DNA of 64,000 nt, from assembly GCF_009831215.1 (NCBI RefSeq), contig NZ_WUTW01000004.1:1-64000 (forward strand). The letters are read 5' to 3'. Below, piece by piece: positions 6,063 through 19,194 of the stretch. The translations under genes and the position numbers were made by a program. The notes below the pieces were generated by a model that was given only the letters and a program-made list of their open reading frames with translations, made no database searches and was not told where the DNA came from. Positions within the stretch are counted from its first letter, which is position 1; every line of letters starts with the position of its first letter. The stretch is from Actinomadura rayongensis (GTDB taxonomy: Bacteria; Actinomycetota; Actinomycetes; Streptosporangiales; Streptosporangiaceae).

Positions 6063-6854
6063 TCAGCGGGTCGCGGTGACGGTGACGGTCGCCATGCCCG
6101 GTTCGATGAGGCCCGGGCGCGACAGCCGGTCGATGACGGTGGTCACGTCGTCCGGGCCGATGCCGGGCAGGGCGCTGATCGCCGGACCCAGGTGCTGGAT
6201 GGTCATCCGCCAGAACCGGCCCATCGGGGTGTCATGGACCGCGGTGGGGCACGTGATGCGCATCTCGACGTCGGTCAGGCCGCGACCGGCCACGTCGTAG
6301 GGCAGGTCGAGCGGCCACTCGCAGTCGGTGCCGATCCGCTCCGCGAGCACCGTGAACACGCCCAGGGACACCTTGCGGTAGGCCTCGTCCCGTGCCGCCC
6401 ACAGCGGGAACAGGGCCGACTCCTCCAGGACCAGCCGGCCGCCGGGGGCCAGCCATCGGGCGATGTCCGCCAGGACGCGGTCGCGCTCGGGGAGGTGGAC
6501 CAGCAGGTAGCGGGCATGGATCAGGTCGAAGGACGCGTCGGGGAACGAGTCGGACGTCACGTCGTGGCGGACGTACTCCAGGTTGGGGTGGTCGGAGGCG
6601 TCCAGGAACCGCAGGTCCAGGTCGGTCGCGGTGACCTGCGCGGCGGGGTGGCGTTCGGCCAGGCGGCGCGCGACCGATCCGGTGCCCGCCGCCAGTTCCA
6701 GGCAGCGGCGCACGGGACGGCGCGGCAGCGCGTCCAGGGTCGCGAACGAGACCGGATCCAGCGCCGCGCACAGCGCCTCCAGGCGCTCCCGCTCGTCGGC
6801 GTCTTCGTGGCCGAAGACCGTGTCGCCGTAGCGTTCGGCGTTGCGGGTCGTCAT
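6063..6854 (-). CDS. class I SAM-dependent methyltransferase
   Basis: A 263-residue methyltransferase with the SAM-binding motif ELAAGTGSVA near residue 52, an acidic second motif (TATDLD) and a post-motif region FDLIHARYLLVHLPE typical of class I small-molecule enzymes. Its ATG overlaps the stop of the upstream FMN oxidase as ATGA, so translation is coupled. It is the distal gene of the leftward pair diverging from the synthase operon, so it may methylate a product of that pathway (inference). It ends one base from the convergent GroES-like gene. Confidence 0.9.
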   Translation of the reverse strand: MTTRNAERYGDTVFGHEDADERERLEALCAALDPVSFATLDALPRRPVRRCLELAAGTGSVARRLAERHPAAQVTATDLDLRFLDASDHPNLEYVRHDVTSDSFPDASFDLIHARYLLVHLPERDRVLADIARWLAPGGRLVLEESALFPLWAARDEAYRKVSLGVFTVLAERIGTDCEWPLDLPYDVAGRGLTDVEMRITCPTAVHDTPMGRFWRMTIQHLGPAISALPGIGPDDVTTVIDRLSRPGLIEPGMATVTVTATR

Positions 6855-8044
6855 GCCGTCATTCCTTTCTCGGTGGGCGGAACGGCGCGGACGTCGGCTT
6901 CCGACAGGGACGCGCAGGTCCGGTGGCCGGTCAGCGCGAGCGCGCCGGTGAACTCTTCGCGCAGGCTGCGCAGGACGTGTTCGACGCCCGCCTGTCCCCC
7001 GACGGCGAGGCCGTACAGCCAGGGGCGTCCGATCATCACGGCGTCGGCTCCGAGCGCCAGCGCGATCAGCGCGTCGGTGCCGGTGCGGACGCCAGAGTCG
7101 AACAGGACGGGGACGCGTCCGCCGACCGCCGCCGCCACCGGGGGCAGGCAGTCCAGCGCGGCCACTCCGGCGTCGAGCTGCCGGCCGCCGTGGTTCGACA
7201 CGATGAGGCCGTCGACGCCCTCCGCGCACAGGCGGGTCGCCTCGTCGGGGCGGCACACGCCCTTGACGACGATCGGGAGGCTGGTCCACGACCGGAGCAG
7301 CGCCAGGTCCTCGGGCTGGAGCGCGGGCTTGGTGAAGACGCGGTTCCACGTCTCGGCCGCCGCCGCGACCATCTCCGGGGTAAGGCCGTCGGGCACGGAT
7401 CCGAACCCCGCCAGCTCCCAGAACCGGCGGTCCGAGACGTAGTTGCCGAGGCCGTGCGCGTGCTGGAAGGGGAAGAAGCCCGAGGACAGTTCCCGCGTCC
7501 GCCACCCCGCCACGTGGCAGTCGCCCATCACCACGATCGCGGTGTATCCGGCGGCCTCGGCCCGCTCGATCAGGGAGCGGGCCAGTTTCTCGTCGTCGGG
7601 CCAGGCGAACTGGAACCATCGTTGCCCGTTCGGTGCAGCCTCGGCGACGTCCTCCAGCGGGGTCGACGTCACCGCCGACAGCACCTGGACCGCTCCGACC
7701 CGCTCGGCCGCCCGCGCCGCCGCCGCCTCGGCCTCGGGGTGCGCCAGCTCGGCCACCCCCGCCGGGGCCAGCATCACCGGCATGCTCATCGGGGTGCCCA
7801 GCACGGTGCGGGACGGGTCGGCGGGCGCTCCGTCGCGCAGCACCCGGTAGGTCAGCCCCCAGCGGCCGAACGCCGCCTCGTTCGCCGCCACGGTCCGCTC
7901 GCGGCCCGCGCCGCCCGCGATGTAGTCGAAGTGTTCGCGCGGCATGTCGCGCCGCGCCGCCTCTTCCAGTCCTTTCGGGGTGAAGGGGAACGGACTCCCT
8001 CCGGCGGCGAACACCTGGGTTTGGTAACTGCCCGTATAGGCCAC
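6851..8044 (-). CDS. FMN-dependent alpha-hydroxy-acid oxidase / lactate 2-monooxygenase-like
   Basis: A 397-residue flavoenzyme of the glycolate oxidase/lactate monooxygenase family, predicted to oxidise an L-2-hydroxy acid. The substrate-proton-abstracting His lies in SNHGGRQLD, the FMN-contacting lysine in IVVKGV, and DSGVRTGTD and GRPWLYG close the barrel. The frame is open far upstream, but the GTG at 8044 has AGGAG 8 nt before it and starts just before the conserved segment. It is divergent from the synthase operon across the dyad operator and coupled to the methyltransferase. Its role may be tailoring or precursor supply; the true substrate is unknown. Confidence 0.88.
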   Translation of the reverse strand: MAYTGSYQTQVFAAGGSPFPFTPKGLEEAARRDMPREHFDYIAGGAGRERTVAANEAAFGRWGLTYRVLRDGAPADPSRTVLGTPMSMPVMLAPAGVAELAHPEAEAAAARAAERVGAVQVLSAVTSTPLEDVAEAAPNGQRWFQFAWPDDEKLARSLIERAEAAGYTAIVVMGDCHVAGWRTRELSSGFFPFQHAHGLGNYVSDRRFWELAGFGSVPDGLTPEMVAAAAETWNRVFTKPALQPEDLALLRSWTSLPIVVKGVCRPDEATRLCAEGVDGLIVSNHGGRQLDAGVAALDCLPPVAAAVGGRVPVLFDSGVRTGTDALIALALGADAVMIGRPWLYGLAVGGQAGVEHVLRSLREEFTGALALTGHRTCASLSEADVRAVPPTEKGMTA

Positions 8045-8124
8045 AGCACCGTCTCCTCTCGTTGACGTCTTCCACCCCAGTAGTTCGCCGACCGCCGGGC
8101 GGATCAACGAGATCCCGCACCCTG

Positions 8125-8210
8125 ACATGTCACGCCTTGGGAGAACGTCACGCCTTCTCGTCGGGCGCTCGTCCGCGCAGGGCGTGACAACCGGAAAAGG
8201 CGTGACATGT
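8125..8210. promoter_or_regulatory. 86-bp dyad-symmetric operator in divergent promoter
   Basis: Four copies of one motif. ACATGTCACGCCTT (8125-8138) and GTCACGCCTT (8147-8156) read rightwards; AGGGCGTGAC (8179-8188) and AAGGCGTGACATGT (8197-8210) read in reverse. The outer pair is an exact 14-bp inverted repeat, and within each arm the copies are exactly 18 bp apart. It lies between the divergent FMN oxidase and synthase genes. The same 18-bp-spaced motif recurs at 17666-17695. Confidence 0.8.
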
Positions 8211-8252
8211 GGACCGCGCGACGTCCTGGCAAGGAAATCCGGGGGCGGAGTA

Positions 8253-8276
8253 GGCAGGGAAGAAGAACCCCCTGCC
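8253..8276 (+). other. 5' UTR hairpin before the synthase operon
   Basis: GGCAGGG (8253-8259) pairs perfectly with CCCTGCC (8270-8276) around a 10-nt purine-rich loop, 22 nt before the first synthase start codon. It could affect mRNA stability or act as an attenuator. No alternative pairing was evident by eye. Confidence 0.4.
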
Positions 8277-8298
8277 GTCATCGTCATGAAGGACACGC

Positions 8299-9576
8299 AT
8301 GCCAATCGAAGCGAAAACGACCATCGCCGGCTCACACGTGAACGGGCACGGATTGCCCGGGAAGGCCGTCCGGCGGAGAACCGCCGTCGTCTTCCCGGGG
8401 CAGGGCGCTTACCGGCCGGGCATCCTCCAGGAGCTGCGCACCGCCTCGCCCGAGTCCGGCGCCGTCCTGGAGGAGATCTCCGCCGCGCTCGACGGCGGAC
8501 TCGACCGGCTGCTCGGCAGGGACAGGGACGCGTCGCCCGAAGACCTCGCGGCCGACGCGCCGGACCTGCTCCAGACGGCCGTCTTCGCCGCCTCGGTCGC
8601 GCTCTGGGCGGCACGCCACCGCGACCTGCCGGACGACGCCGTGCTGGTCGGGCACAGCCTCGGCGAGATCGCCGCCGCCACCTGCGCGGGAGCCTTCTCG
8701 ATCGCCGACGGCGCCCGGATCCTCCAGGCGCGCAACGACGCGCTCATGGACCTCACCGTCCGCGACGGCGGCATGGTCGCACTCGGACTCGACGACGCGC
8801 GGGCCTCGGCCCTGCTCCGTTTCGTGGACGACCCCACCCTCGCCGTGGCGTGCCGGAACGCGCCGGACCAGACGGTGGTGTCCGGCTCGTCCGGCGCCCT
8901 GGCCCGCGTCGGGGAGACCGCGCGGGCCCTGGCCGTGCCCGCCGCCGCGCTCCCCGCGCCGTTCCCGTTCCACGGACCGCGCATGGCGCCGGTCGCGGCC
9001 CGGCACCGGGAGCTCATCGACGGCATCCCGCAGCGGCCCCTGTCCTGGAACCTCTACTCCACGCTGCGCCGCCGGCACCTGACCGACGCCGACGACATCG
9101 GCGCGACGCTGGTCGACCAGGAACTCGTCACCGTGGACTTCCTGGACGCGGTCCGGACGCTCCACGCGCACGGCGTCCGCGACTTCGTCGAATGCGGGGC
9201 CGGCGAGACCATGGTCCGGGCCGTGCGCCGCAGCGTGCCCGCGGTCGACTGCCGGACCTGGGACGAACGGCAGGAACACCGGCCGGCACCGCCGGTCGAG
9301 CGGTCCCCCGCGCCGGACGAGCCGCCGGAGGACGTCCTCGACGCCCTGCGCGCCCTCTACGCCGAAGTCCTCGGCTACCCGGTGGAGGTCATGGCGGACG
9401 ACGCCGACCTCGAAGCCGACCTCGGCGTCGACTCCCTCAAGCAGACCGAACTGCTCGTCCGGGCGGCCGGGCGGTTCGGGCTGCCCGAGACCGGCGATCT
9501 CAAGGTGTCCGACCTCCCCACGCTGGCGTGCGTGGCCGACGAGGTCCGCCGCCGCCTCGACCACGGGACGCGGTGA
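8299..9576 (+). CDS. malonyl-CoA:ACP acyltransferase fused to acyl carrier protein (MAT-ACP)
   Basis: A 425-residue two-domain protein. Residues about 28-330 form a FabD-type acyltransferase: FPGQG near the start, the nucleophile Ser120 in GHSLGE, and a histidine in FPFHGPRM. After a Pro-rich linker, residues about 350-420 form an acyl carrier protein whose phosphopantetheine serine is Ser379 in LGVDSLK, a form seen in PUFA- and enediyne-type carriers. ATG at 8299 preceded by GAAGGA. It lies 5 bp before the multidomain synthase, so the two should work as one enzyme: loading, tethering, then condensation and reduction. No phosphopantetheinyl transferase gene is present in the window. Confidence 0.92.
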   Translation: MPIEAKTTIAGSHVNGHGLPGKAVRRRTAVVFPGQGAYRPGILQELRTASPESGAVLEEISAALDGGLDRLLGRDRDASPEDLAADAPDLLQTAVFAASVALWAARHRDLPDDAVLVGHSLGEIAAATCAGAFSIADGARILQARNDALMDLTVRDGGMVALGLDDARASALLRFVDDPTLAVACRNAPDQTVVSGSSGALARVGETARALAVPAAALPAPFPFHGPRMAPVAARHRELIDGIPQRPLSWNLYSTLRRRHLTDADDIGATLVDQELVTVDFLDAVRTLHAHGVRDFVECGAGETMVRAVRRSVPAVDCRTWDERQEHRPAPPVERSPAPDEPPEDVLDALRALYAEVLGYPVEVMADDADLEADLGVDSLKQTELLVRAAGRFGLPETGDLKVSDLPTLACVADEVRRRLDHGTR

Positions 9577-9581
9577 GGGCC

Positions 9582-12500
9582 ATGTCGGAGTTCGACGGCA
9601 GGACCGTGCTCGTCACCGGGGGTGGCCGCGGGATCGGCAGGACCATCGGCGCCCGCTTCGCGCTCGACGGCGCCCGCGTCTTCCTCAACTACTTCCACTC
9701 CCGCGAGGCGGCCGAGGCCACGGCCGCCGAGCTGACCGAGGCCGGGGGCCGCGTGGAACTGCTCCACGGCTCCGTCGCCAAGCCCGACGACCTGTGCCGC
9801 ATGATGGACCACGTCCGGGCCGCGGCGGGCGGCCTCGACGTCCTGGTCAACAACGCCGCGCTGGGCACGCTCGCGCCCATGCGCGAGCTGACGGAACGCG
9901 CCTGGACGCAGAGCTGGCAGACCACCGTGCAGGGGACCGTCGACTGTTCGCTCCTCGCCGCCGAGATCATGCGGCCCGGCGGCGCGATCGTCACGATGTC
10001 CTCGATCGGCGCCGGTCTCGTCCTCGGCAACTACGCGGCGCTGGGCATCGCCAAGGCCGCGGTGGAGTCGGCGACCCGCTACCTCGCGGTCGAGCTGGCC
10101 CCGCTCGGGATCCGGGTCAACTGCGCGTCGTGCGGCATCATCGAGAGCCCGGTGCTGGGGAAGTTCCCCGAGTCGGACGAGCTGCGCGACGTCGTCGCGG
10201 CGGCGACGCCGTTCGGCCGCCTCGCCGAGCCCGACGAGTACGCCGACCTCGTCCTGTTCCTCGCCTCGGAGCGGGCGCGGTGGATCACCGGTCAGACCGT
10301 GCTCGCCGACGGCGGGCTCAGCCTCGGCGCGCCCCTGCTGACTCCGCCGACACACCGGGCCCCGAAACCGGCTCCCGTCGCGTCGCCCGAGCCGGTGGAC
10401 GCGGGCGAGGCGATCGCCATCGTGGGGACGGGCTCGGTGGTGCCCGGCGCGGACGGCTCCGACGCCCTGTGGAAATTGCTCACCTCCGGGGATCCGGTCT
10501 TCCGGGAGCCCGGACGGCGGTGGTCGGACAGCTACCACGCGCCCGACCTCATCTACGCGCGGGAGCTGGGGTTCGTCACCACCGACGAACCGGACCGTGC
10601 CGAGGACTACAACACCACGTGGCTGCGCAGGGCCCTTGCGGAGGCCTGGGACGGCGTGGTCAGCCGTCCGGACGACAGGACCGCGCTCTACGTCGGGGCG
10701 ACGCCCGACGGGAGCCAGCACCTGGAGGAGTCCGTGGTCCTTTCCGCTCTGCGCCGGGGCCTCGCCGGAGCGCCGGGCGCCGAGGAGGTGATCCGAGCGG
10801 CGCGCGAGCACCTGCGCCATGCCGCGCCGGATCCCGTCCGCTGTCTTCCGCACGTCGCGGTCACGGCGGCGGCCGAAGCCGTCCTGCCGCCGCGCTCCGA
10901 CGTCACGGTCGTCGACACGGCGTGCAGTTCGTCGCTGTACGCCGTCGACCTCGGCATGCGCCGCCTGCGCTCGGGCGCCTGCGACGTCGCCGTCTGCGGG
11001 GGCGCCTTCGCCCTCACGCCGCGGTCGGTGGCGCTGTTCGCCGCGCTGCGCGGGCTCAGCCCCACGGGCGCCGTGCGCGCCTTCGACGGCGCCGCCGACG
11101 GGACGCTGTTCGCCGACGGCGCCGCCGTGGTCGTCCTGAAGACCCTGGAGCGGGCGCGTGCGGACGGGGATCGGGTGCTCGGCGTCCTCACCGGCCTCGG
11201 CACGTCCTGCGACGGCAAGGGCAAGGCGATCTACGCGCCCAGCAGCCGGGGGCAGGTCCTGGCCGTCCGGCGCGCCTACCGGGCGGGCCCGTCGCCGGAG
11301 GACGTCTCGTGGATCATCGCGCACGGCACCGGGACGCGGGCCGGGGATCAGGCCGAGTTCGCCACGCTGGCGTCGGAGTTCGCGCACGGTCTCGTGCTGA
11401 CGTCGAACAAGTCGCTCATCGGGCACACCGGATGGCCGTCGGGCGTGCTGTCGGTGATCCACGCCGTGGAGGGGCTGCGGCGCTCCGCGATCCCCGCCCA
11501 GCGGCCCGCCGTCACCGCGCCCAGCCCGGACCTGCCCGCCCGGTTCACCGTCCCGGACGGCGAGGTGCCCTGGCCCCGTCCGGACGCCGGTGTCCGGACC
11601 GTGGCCGTCGACTCCTTCGGCTTCGGCGGCACCAACGCCCACGCCGTGATCACCGAGGACCATCCCGGGCTCCAGGCGAACCCGAGGCCGGCCGAGCGGG
11701 ATCCGGTCGTGCTGGTCGGCTGGAACGCCGTCGTGCCCGGACGGCCGTCCCGGCAGGACGTCGCGGACTGGCTGGTCTCCGGCGCGGGCGAGACTCCGGC
11801 GGCGTTCGCGACGGTGCCCCCGGTGCCGTTCCGCATGCTCCGGACGCCCCCGGCGACCCACCGGACCCTCGACCCGGCGCACCGGCTCGCGCTGCTGGCG
11901 GTCGACGGGCTCCACGACGAACTCGGCGCGTTCTGGTCCGAGGTCAAGGACACCTGCGGAGTGATCGGTGCGCATTGCGGTCTCACCTCGCATGCGGCGC
12001 GGCACACCGTCCGCTACGCGCTGGACGACCTCCGCGGCGCCGTGGGGCGCGCCGCGTCGTTCGACCGCTTCGCCGCCGAGGCGCGCGACGCCGTCGAAGA
12101 GGCCACCGAGGACTCCTTCCCCGGCGGCATGCCGTCGGTGATGCCGGCGCGCGTGGCCGCCGCGCTGGACTTCCACGGCCTGGCGATGAACTGCGACACC
12201 GGCACGTGCTCCGGCGTGGACGCGCTGCGGGCGGCCTGCGATCACCTGGCCTCCGGCGACCTCGACCTCGCCCTGGTGGTCTGCGTCAACGCCCACAGCG
12301 ACGCGGCGTGGGCCGACCTCGTCCTGCCCGCGTTCGACGACGGCGTCGCCGAGCTGGGCGAGGCGGCGGTGTGCTTCGCGCTGACGCGGCGGTCCCACGC
12401 CCTGCGCAACGACCTGCCGGTGCTCGCCACGCTCGGCGATGCGACCGGCGTCAGTGCGGAGGGCTCCCGTCCCCGGCCGCTCGAACGGCGCAGCTACATG

Positions 12501-14999
12501 GCGGCCGACTCCGCCTTCGCGGTGCTGGCCCACGTCCTGCGGCGGGAGGACGCGACGGTGTGCTGGACGGACCCCTTCACCGGCCGCACCGCGCGCCTGG
12601 CCGTCGCCGCTCCCGCTCCCCCGGCGTCCGAGGTCGTGCATCGTTACGCCCTCGCGCACCGGCCCGTCCCGGCCGTGGCCGCCGAGACGGCGGTCGAGAT
12701 GTTCCCCGACCACTGCCTCGTGCTCACCAACGGCCCGGAACCGCCCGCGACGCTCCCGCCGCACACGCTCGTCGTCTCCACGGCGGACGTTCCGGGGCGT
12801 CCCGGCGTGCACACGGCCGTGCCGGACGAGGGCGTCATCGCCGGCCTGGTCACGGCGACGGGCTGGCGGCCCCGGCACCTGCGGATCGTCGCCGACGCCG
12901 ACGCCGACGTCCTGGACCTCCACGACCTGGCCTTTCTCGCCCTCAAGGAGTGCTTCGACGACCTCGGGCGCGGCAGCGTGGCGACGCTCGTGCACAACGC
13001 GGTCGCCCACGGGCAGCCGGTCGCCCGGGCCGGACTGTTCACCGGCTTCGGCAGGACGGTGGCCTGCGACCTTCCGGACGCCACGGTCCACTGCGTCCTG
13101 TCCGACGCCGACATGCCGGAGAACGGCCTGCGCCATTGGGCCGAAGAACTCGGACGGCACTCCACCACCGGGACCGTTCTCCGCATCGGCGCCGACCGGT
13201 TCGAGCCGCTGCCCACGCCCGCGCCCGAACCACCGGCGACGCCGTCTCCGCCGCTCGACGACTCCAGCGTCATCGTCGCGGCGGGCGGGTCGCGCGGCAT
13301 CACGGCGGCGCTGCTGGACGATCTGACGCGCGCCGTCCGGCCGAAGATCTGGATCCTCGGGCGCGGCGAGATCACCGGCGGCCCGGCGCTGCCGCCCGGC
13401 ACGTCGCGCAGCGACCATCTCCGCGCCCGCAGACGCGACGACCCGTCCGTCTCGGTCGCGGCGGCCAGCCGCGAATACGACCGGCACGTCGAACGGCAGG
13501 AGACCCTCGACACCCTCCGGGCGCTGCGGGACCGGTGCGGCGCCGACCGCGTGACGTACCTGACGTGCGATGTCCGGGATCGGGCGGCGGTCCGGCGGAG
13601 CGTCGAACAGATCCTGGCGGAGGACCCGGTCATCGACCTGCTGCTGTTCGCGGCGGGCGTCAACCGGTCCACCGAGACGCGCCGCAAGTCGCTGGAGGAG
13701 TTCCGGCTCGTCCGGGACGTCAAGGTCCGCGGGCACGCGCACCTGCGCGACGCCTTCGGCCCGCGCCGGCCGCGGACATGGATCGACATGGGCTCGGTCT
13801 CGGCGTTCACCGGCCAGCCCGGCAGCACCGACTACACCTCCGCCAACGACTACCTGGCGACCGCCGCCCAGCAGGCGAACGCGGAGGGCTTCGACCACCG
13901 CACCATCGCCTGGCCCATCTGGAAGGAGACCGGGCTCGCCTCCGGCGCGATCATGCGCGAGCAGCTGGCCCGGCAGGGCTACACCGCGATCACGACGGCG
14001 GAGGGCGTCCGGCAGTTCCGGCACGTCCTGGCCGGGCCGTCGCATCCGCCGTGCACGCTGCTCCTCGGCCCGCTGGACGCGGAGGTCGCCGACCGGCGTT
14101 TCCCGGGCGTCATGGCCGCGGCCGACGCACCGGACCACCCGCTCCTGAGCGAGGCTCCGTCCGGGGCGGGCGACGTCGGGTGCAGCCTCGACGTCGCGCG
14201 CCACGCCTACCTCGACGACCATCTGGTCGACGGCAGGCCGACCGTTCCGGGCGCCTTCCTCGTGGAGGCGGCGGTCGAGGCCGCGGCGGCGGTGTGCCCG
14301 GGGCGTCTCCCCGTCCGCGTTCTCGACGGGATCTTCGAGGGCTTCCTCAAGGCGCACCCGCGCACCGGCACCGTCGACTTCCGGATCAGGACCGCGATCG
14401 ACCGCTCCGACGACCGGGAGACCCACGTCGCCGTCACCTTCCACAGCGACCTTCCCGGCGGGCTCGCGAGCCGTCGGCACGCCCGCTGCACCGTGGTCCT
14501 CGCCGACGCCGCACCGGACGCGCCACGGCATCCGATCGTCGTCCCGCCCGGCGCCGTGCCGCTGCCCGACCCGTACCACCTGCCGAACGGCTCGATCGTC
14601 CTGCGCGGGGCCTTCGCCACGACCGCCGCCACCTCCGTGCACGACGGCACCGCCTACGGCCGCTTCGCGCCGCCCGAACACGTCCACCGGCCGCCCTTCA
14701 CCGGCTTCCGCACACCGGCGCTCCTGCTCGACGCGCTCGCCCGGATCGCCGTTCTGCTGGAAGGGACGGCGACCGACCTCCCGGTCCACGCGCTCAAGTC
14801 CTTCCGGGAGATCACCTTCCACCGGACGGGCAGCGATCGCGACGTCGCGGACCGGGCCGTCCTGCTGAGCGCCGTGCGGGACCACGGCTGTTCGTGCACC
14901 GCCGCCGACGAGGAAGGGGAGGTCGTCCTCACGATCCGCGGTCTCGAAGGCCATCCGAAGGGCGTGGCCCGCCTCGACCCGGCCCCGGATCGTCCTTGA
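9582..14999 (+). CDS. multidomain iterative synthase: ER(FabL)-KS-CLF-like-KR-DH
   Basis: An 1805-residue polyketide/fatty-acid synthase. Residues 1-250 are an SDR of the FabL enoyl-reductase type, with Y151-x6-K158 rather than the ketoreductase Y-x3-K spacing. A ketosynthase follows (about 275-690) with Cys448 in DTACSSS, His581 in HGTGT and His615 in NKSLIGHT. A shorter KS-like domain (about 700-1020) keeps Cys876 in DTGTCSG but has no HGTGT or second histidine, like chain-length-factor domains. Next come a KR (about 1225-1460; GGSRGITA, Tyr1418, Asn1422) and a hot-dog dehydratase (about 1520-1800; His1547 in HLVDGRPTVP). With MAT-ACP this gives a complete iterative cycle resembling PUFA synthases in content but not in order. 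No thioesterase is visible. The product is probably a fatty acyl or polyene chain (inference). Confidence 0.9.
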   Translation: MSEFDGRTVLVTGGGRGIGRTIGARFALDGARVFLNYFHSREAAEATAAELTEAGGRVELLHGSVAKPDDLCRMMDHVRAAAGGLDVLVNNAALGTLAPMRELTERAWTQSWQTTVQGTVDCSLLAAEIMRPGGAIVTMSSIGAGLVLGNYAALGIAKAAVESATRYLAVELAPLGIRVNCASCGIIESPVLGKFPESDELRDVVAAATPFGRLAEPDEYADLVLFLASERARWITGQTVLADGGLSLGAPLLTPPTHRAPKPAPVASPEPVDAGEAIAIVGTGSVVPGADGSDALWKLLTSGDPVFREPGRRWSDSYHAPDLIYARELGFVTTDEPDRAEDYNTTWLRRALAEAWDGVVSRPDDRTALYVGATPDGSQHLEESVVLSALRRGLAGAPGAEEVIRAAREHLRHAAPDPVRCLPHVAVTAAAEAVLPPRSDVTVVDTACSSSLYAVDLGMRRLRSGACDVAVCGGAFALTPRSVALFAALRGLSPTGAVRAFDGAADGTLFADGAAVVVLKTLERARADGDRVLGVLTGLGTSCDGKGKAIYAPSSRGQVLAVRRAYRAGPSPEDVSWIIAHGTGTRAGDQAEFATLASEFAHGLVLTSNKSLIGHTGWPSGVLSVIHAVEGLRRSAIPAQRPAVTAPSPDLPARFTVPDGEVPWPRPDAGVRTVAVDSFGFGGTNAHAVITEDHPGLQANPRPAERDPVVLVGWNAVVPGRPSRQDVADWLVSGAGETPAAFATVPPVPFRMLRTPPATHRTLDPAHRLALLAVDGLHDELGAFWSEVKDTCGVIGAHCGLTSHAARHTVRYALDDLRGAVGRAASFDRFAAEARDAVEEATEDSFPGGMPSVMPARVAAALDFHGLAMNCDTGTCSGVDALRAACDHLASGDLDLALVVCVNAHSDAAWADLVLPAFDDGVAELGEAAVCFALTRRSHALRNDLPVLATLGDATGVSAEGSRPRPLERRSYMAADSAFAVLAHVLRREDATVCWTDPFTGRTARLAVAAPAPPASEVVHRYALAHRPVPAVAAETAVEMFPDHCLVLTNGPEPPATLPPHTLVVSTADVPGRPGVHTAVPDEGVIAGLVTATGWRPRHLRIVADADADVLDLHDLAFLALKECFDDLGRGSVATLVHNAVAHGQPVARAGLFTGFGRTVACDLPDATVHCVLSDADMPENGLRHWAEELGRHSTTGTVLRIGADRFEPLPTPAPEPPATPSPPLDDSSVIVAAGGSRGITAALLDDLTRAVRPKIWILGRGEITGGPALPPGTSRSDHLRARRRDDPSVSVAAASREYDRHVERQETLDTLRALRDRCGADRVTYLTCDVRDRAAVRRSVEQILAEDPVIDLLLFAAGVNRSTETRRKSLEEFRLVRDVKVRGHAHLRDAFGPRRPRTWIDMGSVSAFTGQPGSTDYTSANDYLATAAQQANAEGFDHRTIAWPIWKETGLASGAIMREQLARQGYTAITTAEGVRQFRHVLAGPSHPPCTLLLGPLDAEVADRRFPGVMAAADAPDHPLLSEAPSGAGDVGCSLDVARHAYLDDHLVDGRPTVPGAFLVEAAVEAAAAVCPGRLPVRVLDGIFEGFLKAHPRTGTVDFRIRTAIDRSDDRETHVAVTFHSDLPGGLASRRHARCTVVLADAAPDAPRHPIVVPPGAVPLPDPYHLPNGSIVLRGAFATTAATSVHDGTAYGRFAPPEHVHRPPFTGFRTPALLLDALARIAVLLEGTATDLPVHALKSFREITFHRTGSDRDVADRAVLLSAVRDHGCSCTAADEEGEVVLTIRGLEGHPKGVARLDPAPDRP

Positions 15000-15095: not shown

Positions 15096-16202
15096 ATGAC
15101 GCTGTCACGTCCCCCCGGCCGAGGACCGAACGGCGCGTTGCGGAGACTGCTCGCCGAGGCGCTGGCGCGCGGGCTGGGCCGACGGGTCACGGCCGCCGCG
15201 CCGACTCGGGACCCGGTGACCGTCGACGCCCCGCCGGGCGGCCCGATCGCTCCGACGGCGCCGCCGCGCGGCACCGGCCGCGCCCGCGCGCACCCGAGCA
15301 CGCCGGCGCCCGACGCCGAGGCCATGGTGCGCGCGTTCGCCACCATCGACGACGGCTTCGGCGGCGGCCACTCCCGCGTCGCGCTGGCCGCGTACCTCGC
15401 CCGCGACATCGCCCCCCGGCTCGGCGACATCGGCGCCGGCGGGGCGGCGCGCAGCGGGCTCTGGTCGGCCGCGACCCGGCTGACCTACCGATGCGGGTTC
15501 ATGTGCTTCGACGAGGAACTCCCCGATCTCGCGCAGCGCTACTACCGCGTCGCGCTGGACCTGGCGTCCGCGGCCGGGGACGCCGCCGCCCGCGCGGTCG
15601 TCCTGCGCACGATGTCGAACCAGGCCCGGCTGCTCGGCCACCGCCGCCGCGCGGTCCATCTCGCCGAGGCCGCCGTGGTGACCGGCGGACGGGCGGTCCC
15701 CCCGGCCCGCAGCGCGTTCCTGCTCGGCCAGGTCGCCGTCGCGTCGGCCGCCGCCGGTGACCGGACCAACGCGGTGTCGTCGCTGAGCGCGGCGGAGCGC
15801 CAGTTGAGCCGCGCCACGTCGCAGTCGGCGGCCGAGGACGCGGCGATGGGCGGCTACCATCTCGCCGCGCTGTGGCACCAGCAGGCCGCCGTCCGGGCCC
15901 TGCTGGGCGACCGGGCGGGCGCCGTCTCGGCGCTCGCCGTCTCCCTCGCGCACCGTCCGGCCCAGGAACGACGGTCCCGCACGATCACCCGGGCGCGTCT
16001 CGCGGAACTCCAGCTCGCCCAGGGCGAGGTCGAGCAGGCGGTCGGGACCTGGCACGCGTTCCTGGACGACTACCGCCACCTGCGCTCGGCCCGCGCCACC
16101 ACCGCGCTGCGCACCCTGCGCTCCCGGCTCGCCCCGCACGCGGCCGACCGGGACGTCGCGGGGCTCCTGGCGCGCGCCGGCGCCGAATCCCGGCCGCGCT
16201 GA
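15096..16202 (+). CDS. TPR regulator paralogue lacking the HTH domain
   Basis: A 368-residue protein closely related along its length to the regulator at 17806. Both share DDGxFGGG, a YR/YLCxFxCFD segment, LLGQVAVA and a WHAFLDDY ending near the C-terminus, with tetratricopeptide-like helices. The N-terminal HTH of the paralogue is missing: only its last few residues (ALGRRVT-like) remain, at residues 24-30. ATG at 15096 has GGGAG 7 nt upstream. It lies just after the synthase gene, in the same direction. It may bind a ligand or heterodimerise with the intact regulator rather than bind DNA (inference). Confidence 0.75.
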   Translation: MTLSRPPGRGPNGALRRLLAEALARGLGRRVTAAAPTRDPVTVDAPPGGPIAPTAPPRGTGRARAHPSTPAPDAEAMVRAFATIDDGFGGGHSRVALAAYLARDIAPRLGDIGAGGAARSGLWSAATRLTYRCGFMCFDEELPDLAQRYYRVALDLASAAGDAAARAVVLRTMSNQARLLGHRRRAVHLAEAAVVTGGRAVPPARSAFLLGQVAVASAAAGDRTNAVSSLSAAERQLSRATSQSAAEDAAMGGYHLAALWHQQAAVRALLGDRAGAVSALAVSLAHRPAQERRSRTITRARLAELQLAQGEVEQAVGTWHAFLDDYRHLRSARATTALRTLRSRLAPHAADRDVAGLLARAGAESRPR

Positions 16203-16211
16203 CCCGGGCGA

Positions 16212-17558
16212 TCAGACGAGCGAGTCGGGACGTTCCGCGACGGCACCGCCCGCCGGAGCGTCCTCGACCGGCCCGGCGGCCCGGACGGGGTAGGGCGTGG
16301 TGTCGACGGAGCGCCGCCGGCACGTCAGCGGCCCGAGGCCCGCCAGCGCCGCGACGACCTGCTCCCGCAGCCCCGCCGGGGCCGACCGGGTGACGACGAG
16401 CCCGAGCGCGGTGGCACCGGCCAGCGGCTCGGCCTCCAGATCCGCCAGACGGGTCACCACCCGCACCGCGGGGAAGCGGGCCGAGCGGCGGGCGACCCGC
16501 ACGTCCGGATCACGCTCGTCGGCGGCGAGGACGAAGGTCAGCTCGCTGCCGGACGACACCGAGGCGATCGTCTGCGCCCGGTCGGACGCGGCGTCGCACA
16601 GCACGTCGAAGTGGTGCCCGGCCAGCTCCGGGACGTGGTCGCGCAGCGCCGTCACGATCGGCAGGGCGTCCTCGACGGCCATGCCGGGGTCGATCACGAA
16701 GGACACCGCGTCGCGCGCCCGGGCCGCCGCCGGGACGTCCGCCACGTCGTGGACGACCTCGGCGGCGGGGCCCGCGCAGGCCGTCAGGACGGGGAGCGAC
16801 GCGTGGCGCCGGTCCCCGATCACCACGACGCGATCGCCCCGGGCCGCGTAGGCGGCGGCGTCGGCCTGGACGGCGGTCACCAGCGGGCACGTCCCGTCGA
16901 TCACCCGCAGCCGCCGCCGGGCCGCCTCCGCCCGGACCGCCGGGGGCACGCCGTGCGCGGGGAACGCCACCGGGGCTCCGTCGGGCACCGCGTCGAGGTC
17001 GTCGACGCAGACCACGCCGGCCTGTTCCCACCCCGTCGGCCACGGCGCGCCGGTGACGGGACGGCCGACGACGAACACCCGGCCGCCGTCCGATCGGGTC
17101 GCCGCGCGCGCCATGCCGTCGATCATCCGCGCCGCGCGCCGTCCGCCCCGGCACAGGGCCGGCATGTCGGTCACGAGCAATCGGCGGCTCCGCAGCAGCG
17201 CCGTCCATCGCCCCATCGCCGCGCTCACCGCGGCCGAGGCGACGCCGTCGTCGCGATGGGCCACGAGCGCGAATCCGCCGACGCCGCCGTCGCGGCCCAC
17301 CCACGAAACCGCGGACAGGACACCGGCGGCCGACGGCCCCGCGCCGATCTCCCCGCCGCCCGGCACCGCGCGCAATTCCACGACGCGATCATTTCCGGCG
17401 CCGCGCGCGAGCGTTTCGGACATCCATTCGACCAGCAAAGGGGCGGCGTCACAGCGGACCACGCCGCGTTCCGGATCAGTGAACCACGGCAGGACCAGCA
17501 CGCACCCGATCCGGCCGTCGGGGACCCGGACCTGCCGCCGCTGCAGAGTTAGTTTCAT
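16212..17558 (-). CDS. IspH(LytB)-like iron-sulfur protein with N-terminal extension
   Basis: A 448-residue homologue of 4-hydroxy-3-methylbut-2-enyl diphosphate reductase. The three cluster-ligand cysteines are kept with IspH spacing: Cys136 (LCRGGRRA), Cys224 (DGTCPLV) and Cys321 (LCDAASDRAQ). So are AHGV (His202) and a later His252. But the IspH HPEVEG segment holding the catalytic glutamate reads HASLPV here, and about 125 residues precede the IspH-like core. It therefore probably does a different reductive dehydroxylation or electron-transfer reaction, perhaps on an acyl chain made by the neighbouring synthase (inference). ATG at 17558 sits 4 nt after GGAG; a GTG one codon earlier is less well spaced. 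It converges on the truncated regulator with 9 bp between them. Confidence 0.8.
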   Translation of the reverse strand: MKLTLQRRQVRVPDGRIGCVLVLPWFTDPERGVVRCDAAPLLVEWMSETLARGAGNDRVVELRAVPGGGEIGAGPSAAGVLSAVSWVGRDGGVGGFALVAHRDDGVASAAVSAAMGRWTALLRSRRLLVTDMPALCRGGRRAARMIDGMARAATRSDGGRVFVVGRPVTGAPWPTGWEQAGVVCVDDLDAVPDGAPVAFPAHGVPPAVRAEAARRRLRVIDGTCPLVTAVQADAAAYAARGDRVVVIGDRRHASLPVLTACAGPAAEVVHDVADVPAAARARDAVSFVIDPGMAVEDALPIVTALRDHVPELAGHHFDVLCDAASDRAQTIASVSSGSELTFVLAADERDPDVRVARRSARFPAVRVVTRLADLEAEPLAGATALGLVVTRSAPAGLREQVVAALAGLGPLTCRRRSVDTTPYPVRAAGPVEDAPAGGAVAERPDSLV

Positions 17559-17805: not shown

Positions 17806-19194
17806 ATGGCGGATTCCCGGATCCCCAACCCTTTGCTGCGCGCCCTGCTCGACGAGACCGGATGGAGCGGTGCCGAGCTGGCGCGGCACGCCGCCGCGGT
17901 CGCGGCCGAACAGGGCTCCCCGCACACCTTCGACCGCAAGACGGTGTCGTTCTGGCTGACGGGGCGCCGTCCGCGACCGCCCGTTCCGGCGATCGTGGCC
18001 GAAACCTTCTCCCGTGCCCTCGGCCGCCGCGTGACCGTCGCCGAGACCGGTCTGGCCCGCGCGGCGCCGCGCCCCTCGGCCGCCCGCACGAGCCCGCACG
18101 CCGGACCGTCCGACCCCGCGGCGGCGCTGCGCGACCTCGGCCGGACCAAGCATCACGGGCCGGCGGACGCCGCGTACCGCCTCGCCCTGCTCGACGTCCC
18201 GACGTGGACCCGGGCCGCGGGCGGACGGACCGCGCCGACCATCCCGACGGACCAGGCCGAGACGGTGACCGCGCCGCAGGTGGAGACGGTCGAGCAGATG
18301 GTGCGGCTGTTCCTGGACAACGACGGCGCGTTCGGCGGCGGCTACGCCCGCGGGCCGCTCGCCGCGTACCTGGCCCATGACGTGGCGCCCCTGCTTCGGG
18401 CGTCCGCCCCGCCGCCGCTGCGCCTGCGGCTGCTCCGCGCCGCGACCCGGCTGACCTATCTGTGCGCGTTCACCTGCTTCGACGACGAGGAGCACGCCCT
18501 CGCCCAGCGCTACCACCGCGCCGCCCTCGACCTGGCCGTCGAGGCGGCGGACCCGGCGGGCTACGCTGTCGTCCTGCGGGCCATGTCGGTCCAGGCCCGC
18601 TCGCTCGGGCACCACCACGAAGCCCTCGTCCTCGCCGAGAACGCCGCCGCCACCGGGCAGCGGAAGGCGGGCCCCGCCCGGCACGCGTTCCTCCTCGGCC
18701 AGGTCGCCGTCGCCGCCGCGGCCGAGGCCGACCGCTCGACCGCGCTCTCGGCCCTCGCGGCGGCCGAACGCCTGCTGGACCGGTCGACCTCGCGGTCCAC
18801 GGCCCACCAGGTCCGGCCGTCGCAGACCGCGCCCGGGCCCGCGGACGTCATCGGGGGCTACCATCCGGCCGCGCTCGCCCACCAGGAGGCCGCCGTCCGG
18901 GCGCTGCTCGGCGACCTCCGGGGCGCCATCGCGGCGCTGAAGACCTCCCTGCGGCACCGGCCGTCCGACGAGCGCCGGTCCCGCGCGGTCACCACCGCCC
19001 GCCTGGCCGAACTCCAGCTGCGGACCGGGCACCTCGACCAGGCCGTCTGCACCTGGCACGCGTTCCTCGACGACTATCCCCATCTGTCGTCCGGCCGGGT
19101 GACCTCGGCGTTGCGCACCATGAAGGCCCACCTGCGTCCCCACGCCGACAACGCCGGAGCACGCCACCTCCTCGCCCGGGCCGCCGAGCTGTAG
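17806..19194 (+). CDS. HTH-TPR transcriptional regulator (cluster regulator candidate)
   Basis: A 462-residue regulator. Residues about 10-80 form a Xre-like helix-turn-helix with the pattern LLDETGWSGAELARHA, then a D-K-T-V-S-F-W-L recognition segment and RPRPPVPAIVAE. This N-terminus is common to a large actinomycete family of HTH proteins with tetratricopeptide sensor regions. The remaining residues are Ala/Leu-rich helical repeats, paralogous to the product of 15096-16202. ATG at 17806 has GGAG upstream. The 18-bp-spaced direct repeats in its promoter match those at the synthase promoter, making it the best candidate for the factor that binds both (inference). Confidence 0.85.
   Translation: MADSRIPNPLLRALLDETGWSGAELARHAAAVAAEQGSPHTFDRKTVSFWLTGRRPRPPVPAIVAETFSRALGRRVTVAETGLARAAPRPSAARTSPHAGPSDPAAALRDLGRTKHHGPADAAYRLALLDVPTWTRAAGGRTAPTIPTDQAETVTAPQVETVEQMVRLFLDNDGAFGGGYARGPLAAYLAHDVAPLLRASAPPPLRLRLLRAATRLTYLCAFTCFDDEEHALAQRYHRAALDLAVEAADPAGYAVVLRAMSVQARSLGHHHEALVLAENAAATGQRKAGPARHAFLLGQVAVAAAAEADRSTALSALAAAERLLDRSTSRSTAHQVRPSQTAPGPADVIGGYHPAALAHQEAAVRALLGDLRGAIAALKTSLRHRPSDERRSRAVTTARLAELQLRTGHLDQAVCTWHAFLDDYPHLSSGRVTSALRTMKAHLRPHADNAGARHLLARAAEL

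Follow-up and report, generated by a model that had tools for sequence, protein, structure and literature searches.

The question raised by this locus is whether a compact pair of genes, which places a MAT and an ACP on one protein and SDR, KS, CLF, KR and DH domains on a second, belongs to a known type of iterative synthase or to a line of its own. We addressed it for the pair found in a 64,000-nucleotide stretch of Actinomadura rayongensis DNA, which is called the window below.

Genes and domains of the island

The following features were assigned (positions in the window, strand, description).

6063-6854, minus: SAM-dependent methyltransferase (Methyltransf_11), overlapping the end of the FMN gene
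6851-8044, minus: FMN-dependent alpha-hydroxyacid dehydrogenase/oxidase family protein (PF01070, 387 bits)
8299-9576, plus: MAT-ACP protein, 425 aa (Ser120 in GHSLGE, His225, Ser379)
about 8389-9240, plus: MAT (GHSLGE at 118, with Ser120; His225)
about 9340-9558, plus: single ACP (GVDSLK at 376, with Ser379)
9582-14999, plus: putative iterative synthase, 1805 aa, SDR-KS-CLF-pseudoKR/KR-DH
9582-10331, plus: FabL-type SDR domain, putative enoyl reductase (Tyr151-X6-Lys158; FabL match and tree)
10392-11696, plus: ketosynthase domain (Cys448, His581, His615)
11709-12611, plus: chain-length-factor domain (altered Cys motif; neither HGTGT nor GH motif)
12654-14096, plus: pseudo-KR plus ketoreductase (Ser1405, Tyr1418, Asn1422)
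14109-14966, plus: double-hotdog PKS-type dehydratase (PKS_DH_N; His1547 and Asp1717 conserved in the family)

A domain search, which the initial annotation had proposed as a check, returned AT, ACP, SDR, KS, KR and a PKS-type DH above the Pfam cut-offs: Acyl_transf_1 and PP-binding in the 425-residue protein, and adh_short_C2, the N- and C-terminal ketoacyl-synt models, KR and PKS_DH_N in the 1805-residue protein. Together with the open reading frames and the motif positions, these results bear out both the MAT-ACP protein with Ser120 and Ser379 and the SDR/KS/KS-like/KR/DH protein described earlier, the KS-like part being the CLF. NCBIfam models found the same domains in both proteins, as partial matches below cut-off. 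The best NCBIfam model for both, NF045894 (PKS_plus_SDR), was considered and rejected, since membership requires 1740 bits and the two proteins score 311 and 182. Codon-position GC scoring gave 9582-14999 by far the strongest coding signal when compared with the overlapping frames of the region. The catalytic residues of the window synthase are all intact, its 5.4 kb contain no stop or frameshift, and dN/dS is below 1 in each domain. Between them the two large proteins carry all the activities that assembly of a fatty-acid-like chain requires. No release domain is encoded. The genome holds two PPTases, which are available for charging the ACP.

Residues 710-1010 of the synthase received no Pfam call. 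The active-site Cys motif is changed here in every family member (DTACSS in the KS versus DTGTCS, DAGLAS, DQGEAS and similar forms in the CLF), and no HGTGT or GH motif is present in this region of the window protein. An AlphaFold model of the KS and CLF region (pTM 0.82), built on six sequences and with a mean pLDDT of 71, had as its top PDB match the KS-CLF of Moritella PfaC (6riw; E 7e-34, TM 0.66), which it matched over both halves; the remaining matches listed, to KS-only or KS-AT structures, had TM values of at most 0.44. The family profile also aligns colinearly with the CLF of 6riw. Because of the altered Cys motif, the structural match and the colinear alignment, residues 710-1010 are a CLF, and the earlier call of this domain survives comparison with 6riw and with the profile.

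The FMN enzyme is a member of the lactate oxidase/MftD superfamily that scores below every NCBIfam cut-off; its GTG start at 8044 was placed from the related locus L038. Genome G464, from a different genus within the same family, has genes for the FMN dehydrogenase, the methyltransferase, MAT-ACP and the synthase in an identical layout (86, 78, 73 and 74% identity to the window, respectively), and a gene for an acyl-CoA carboxylase carboxyltransferase stands between the FMN gene and MAT-ACP. This carboxylase subunit inside the G464 island fits malonyl extension. No counterpart of the other window genes was found in the 20 kb stretch of G464. Since the FMN dehydrogenase and the methyltransferase travel with the pair into G464, we take the functional unit to be 6063-14999, with four genes. 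The locus had previously been described as a two-gene system, with coordinates that miss these two co-conserved genes (6063-8044, minus strand), and this description has to be widened.

The FMO gene at 751-2211 was rejected as part of the island: its family is broad, it lies 6 kb away and it has no counterpart at locus L139. It clusters with FMO genes adjoining the Burkholderia relatives.

On the other side of the synthase, 15216-16202 (plus) encodes an NsdA-family TPR regulator that matches its NCBIfam model from profile position 153 of 432; the copy in genome G011 (L038:5577-6875) extends further at its N terminus, and the window protein seems to have been truncated there. Another NsdA-like gene, which is complete, is found at 17806-19194. 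Between the two NsdA-like genes stands an IspH-like gene (16212-17558, minus), whose 448-aa product has an N-terminal extension and scores below all NCBIfam IspH cut-offs.

A widespread family with its own KS clade

A genome-neighbourhood search for the pair, another check that had been suggested, recovered the same core in at least 28 other loci, in actinomycetes and in Burkholderia/Paraburkholderia. Because of this recurrence, the pair is not a chance arrangement. Homologues were present in 9 of 198 relatives (window included) and in 7 of 395 genomes of the class (E<=1e-60), and were found in Streptomyces, Nocardia, Kribbella, Amycolatopsis, Saccharopolyspora, Solihabitans, Burkholderia and Paraburkholderia, so that the stand-alone pair is conserved across phyla. 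MAT-ACP followed by SDR-KS-CLF-KR-DH is the usual order, and a few loci have split genes or lie at contig ends; among 26 loci compared by clustering, MAT-ACP precedes the synthase in 20, and an ACP was recognised in 23. The window has one ACP and its relatives have at most two. A large subgroup carries an extra third protein, a pseudo-KR/KR, together with a P450. Within the host genome (6.9 Mb on 15 contigs, and rich in PKS genes) we found no second copy of the system and no PfaA; a candidate copy at C1:639403-641871 proved to be an SDR adjoining a type II KS/CLF set.

Several variants were seen among these loci. In the three-gene subfamily, the P450 and the pseudo-KR/KR are separate genes in actinomycetes; in Burkholderia (L048:13660-17661 and L051:13708-17715) the P450 is fused to the pseudo-KR/KR, the fusion being seen in L048. 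An EF-hand calcium-binding protein is encoded directly 5' of the MAT-ACP gene at L040:4692-5249 and L041:6188-6745, and L041 has a second EF-hand protein downstream with a weak CMD match. A stand-alone protein encoded at L142:17314-18336, in a cluster where the synthase genes are split, reaches 335 bits with the family DH profile.

KS phylogeny, likewise proposed at the outset, placed the 24 family KS domains in one clade (100/100) with a long stem (1.55). In our trees this clade lies outside the PfaA-like, PfaC, HglE-like, enediyne and modular KS, where the reference KS are mostly unnamed homologues classed by TIGR02813 score or by a DUF1702 neighbour. It was unchanged after Moritella PfaC and mycocerosic acid synthase were added and long branches were dropped. 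As to where the clade attaches more deeply, neither a grouping with lipid-synthase KS nor one with modular KS was preferred (AU p 0.31). The distinct family that the initial annotation had inferred, MAT-ACP plus a FabL-type SDR-KS-CLF-KR-DH protein, is thus upheld by a KS clade of its own. Deep, widely distributed and with no described product found for it, this clade of compact synthases is a direct target for genome mining.

The FabL-type SDR domain and its loss

The best PDB match of the SDR domain is Bacillus subtilis FabL (3oic, 172.6 bits; next match 140.1). In a tree that also took in FabG, AntM, glucose dehydrogenase and SDRs from this and related genomes, FabL, represented by one reference, grouped at 100/100 with 21 SDRs of the family. 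FabL has a YX6K motif with upstream Ser and Asn (PMC9260719); this spacing is that of FabL and FabI, as opposed to YX3K in other SDRs, and it is kept in 20 of the 21 SDRs in the tree and in L043 and L139-L142, that is, in 25 of 26 domains. The Asn of the catalytic tetrad is present in most family members; it is Thr in the window, and Thr, Cys or Ser across the window's subclade. Against the NCBIfam FabL model the window SDR reaches 217.8 of 328 bits, below cut-off. Since the SDR groups with FabL at full support and keeps YX6K, enoyl reductase is its likeliest activity, and the FabL-type assignment made earlier withstood the structural match, the tree and the motif.

Relatives of the window differ in this domain. 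The G011 locus is syntenic with the window and its synthase is 83% identical, but its SDR reads EHAALGIGN where the window has NYAALGIAK, so that the catalytic Tyr and Lys are lost, and a stretch of the substrate loop is deleted; the remaining synthase domains look intact. The SDR branch of G011 is five times longer than that of the window (0.27 versus 0.054). Between the window and G011, the SDR is the least conserved domain (78% versus 86-89%), with a dN of 0.114 versus 0.06-0.08 in the other domains, whereas in the comparison of the window with G049, which is more distant, it is the most conserved (64.7%). Two further synthases, from Streptomyces aculeolatus (L060) and Streptomyces sp. CNH099 (L062), have no SDR at all. 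Because G011 lost the Tyr and Lys and these two synthases lack the domain, reduction is probably optional; by the same comparison the core probably works without an SDR reductase, and ER activity may be lacking or not required. Where the SDR was lost the product would probably have more double bonds, and polyene products are plausible. Together these loci form a natural series, with the ER intact (window, G464), its residues lost (G011) or the domain absent (S. aculeolatus), in which one can ask how an iterative synthase sets its reduction state.

The synthases of L060 and L062 have as neighbours a KASIII, a PreATP-grasp ligase, a DAP/ornithine-type decarboxylase, a free ACP, an acyl-CoA dehydrogenase and a PPTase. 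This set resembles the butirosin amino-acyl-ACP route and suggests an amino-acyl starter unit at these two loci.

Proposed reactions, alternatives and known systems

We consider it likely that the four-gene island serves to make a specialised acyl chain by means of an iterative, reducing synthase. The MAT, acting in trans to the large protein, would load malonyl units on the single ACP, and the KS-CLF of the large protein would condense them repeatedly, while the CLF would influence how long the chain grows. Reduction of the keto group would fall to the KR and dehydration to the PKS-type DH, and the N-terminal FabL-type SDR would reduce the enoyl bond, whether in every round or in some; the resulting chain could be saturated, partly reduced or a polyene. 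Once the chain is released, it or its head group may be modified by the FMN dehydrogenase and the methyltransferase. Counting against this reading are the replaced tetrad Asn, the loss of Tyr and Lys in G011 and of the whole SDR in L060 and L062, the lack of a release domain and the single ACP.

The main alternative, which we regard as possible though doubtful, is a polyene synthase in which the SDR has stopped reducing enoyl bonds, or has become a scaffold or an additional ketoreductase, and the KS-CLF-KR-DH core makes a conjugated polyene. It is consistent with the loss of YX6K, the loop deletion and the longer branch in G011 beside apparently intact other domains, with the SDR-free synthases of L060 and L062, with the replacement of the tetrad Asn in the window's subclade and with the trans enoyls that a PKS-type DH gives. 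It is opposed by the intact YX6K of the window, by the motif's retention in 25 of 26 SDR domains and by the SDR being the most similar domain in the comparison with G049. That the island is decaying and non-functional is unlikely: its genes are about 82-88% identical between the window and G011, compared with 93-98% for most neighbours, the ER is lost in G011, and the adjoining NsdA-family regulator looks truncated in the window, but the intact catalytic residues, the uninterrupted frame and a dN/dS below 1 in every domain argue against decay.

A true PUFA synthase that forms methylene-interrupted cis double bonds would share KS, CLF, MAT, ACP, KR and DH with the window, and would account for the PfaC structural match. 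Such chemistry is very improbable because the genome has no FabA-type dehydratase/isomerase (PF07977), a domain present in 9 of 14 control genomes, and because its sole PfaD-like protein, itself below cut-off, is encoded on a different contig, beside a series of PKS genes; the single ACP and a KS outside the PfaA-like clade also speak against it. Least probable of all is an enediyne-like synthase or a fragment of an ordinary modular PKS. The KR and DH are broadly similar to their PKSE counterparts and the genome has many modular PKS genes, yet the KS clade is apart from both PKSE and modular KS, a CLF is present, no DUF1702 enediyne gene occurs in the genome and the stand-alone pair is kept across phyla.

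A more far-reaching reading, possible though less likely than not, is that the family is a class of iterative type I acyl synthases that evolved separately and differs from the PUFA and secondary-lipid synthases in KS descent. It would have taken up a FabL reductase at the N-terminal ER position, and its members would make saturated or polyene products according to whether the SDR is kept, inactivated or dropped. FabL itself (B. subtilis, 3oic; PMC9260719), the nearest relative in the tree, shares the SDR fold and YX6K with the window domain, but is free-standing in a type II FAS, whereas the window SDR is fused to a synthase.

The Pfa (PUFA) and secondary-lipid synthases (PMC3098273; PMC13291983) have in common with the window the iterative KS, CLF, MAT, ACP, KR and DH, and the PfaC KS-CLF didomain (6riw) is matched by the window model. 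The island departs from the Pfa group in four of the features tested: it has one ACP instead of a tandem array, a FabL-type ER and no PfaD-type TIM-barrel ER, no PF07977 in its synthase in place of the FabA-like DH/isomerase, and a KS clade separate from those of PfaA and PfaC. Its MAT-ACP also stands on a protein of its own, unlike in the Pfa and secondary-lipid synthases. The tandem ACP array is described in PMC3098273 as distinguishing and not obligatory. Shulse and Allen 2011 (PMC3098273) divide these synthases into types A-T; the comparison was made with their text descriptions, and a type that the text leaves undescribed (e.g. M or Q) could still match. Enediyne PKSE is likewise an iterative type I system with KS, AT, ACP, KR and DH, but has no CLF and no SDR, and its KS falls in another clade.

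According to the initial annotation, this domain order is not known from any characterised system. In open-access papers we too found none with this order or with a described product, and no paper for the names of PDB entries 7ZMA and 7ZSK; the order is nevertheless less isolated than was supposed. In Desulfospira joergensenii (L069:98-11809), one 3903-residue protein is organised as NMO-KS-CLF-MAT-KS-like-ACP4-KR-DH, with the ER N-terminal of the KS and with CLF, KR and DH in the same order as in the window, and actinomycete NMO-KS-MAT-ACP-KR proteins (L113) also have an N-terminal ER preceding the KS. Unlike the window synthase, these proteins carry MAT and ACPs in cis, have a KS in another clade and use an ER with the nitronate-monooxygenase/PfaD fold. 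A fused pfaD-pfaA is reported from Ottowia (PMC13291983). The PfaD-type ER of L069 and L113 occupies the position held here by the FabL-type SDR, and an exchange of enoyl-reductase folds at this site may have taken place among related megasynthases. Taken together, these comparisons suggest that the island follows a PUFA-like iterative synthase logic, yet is not a PUFA synthase, and presents a known set of activities in a FabL-type variant.
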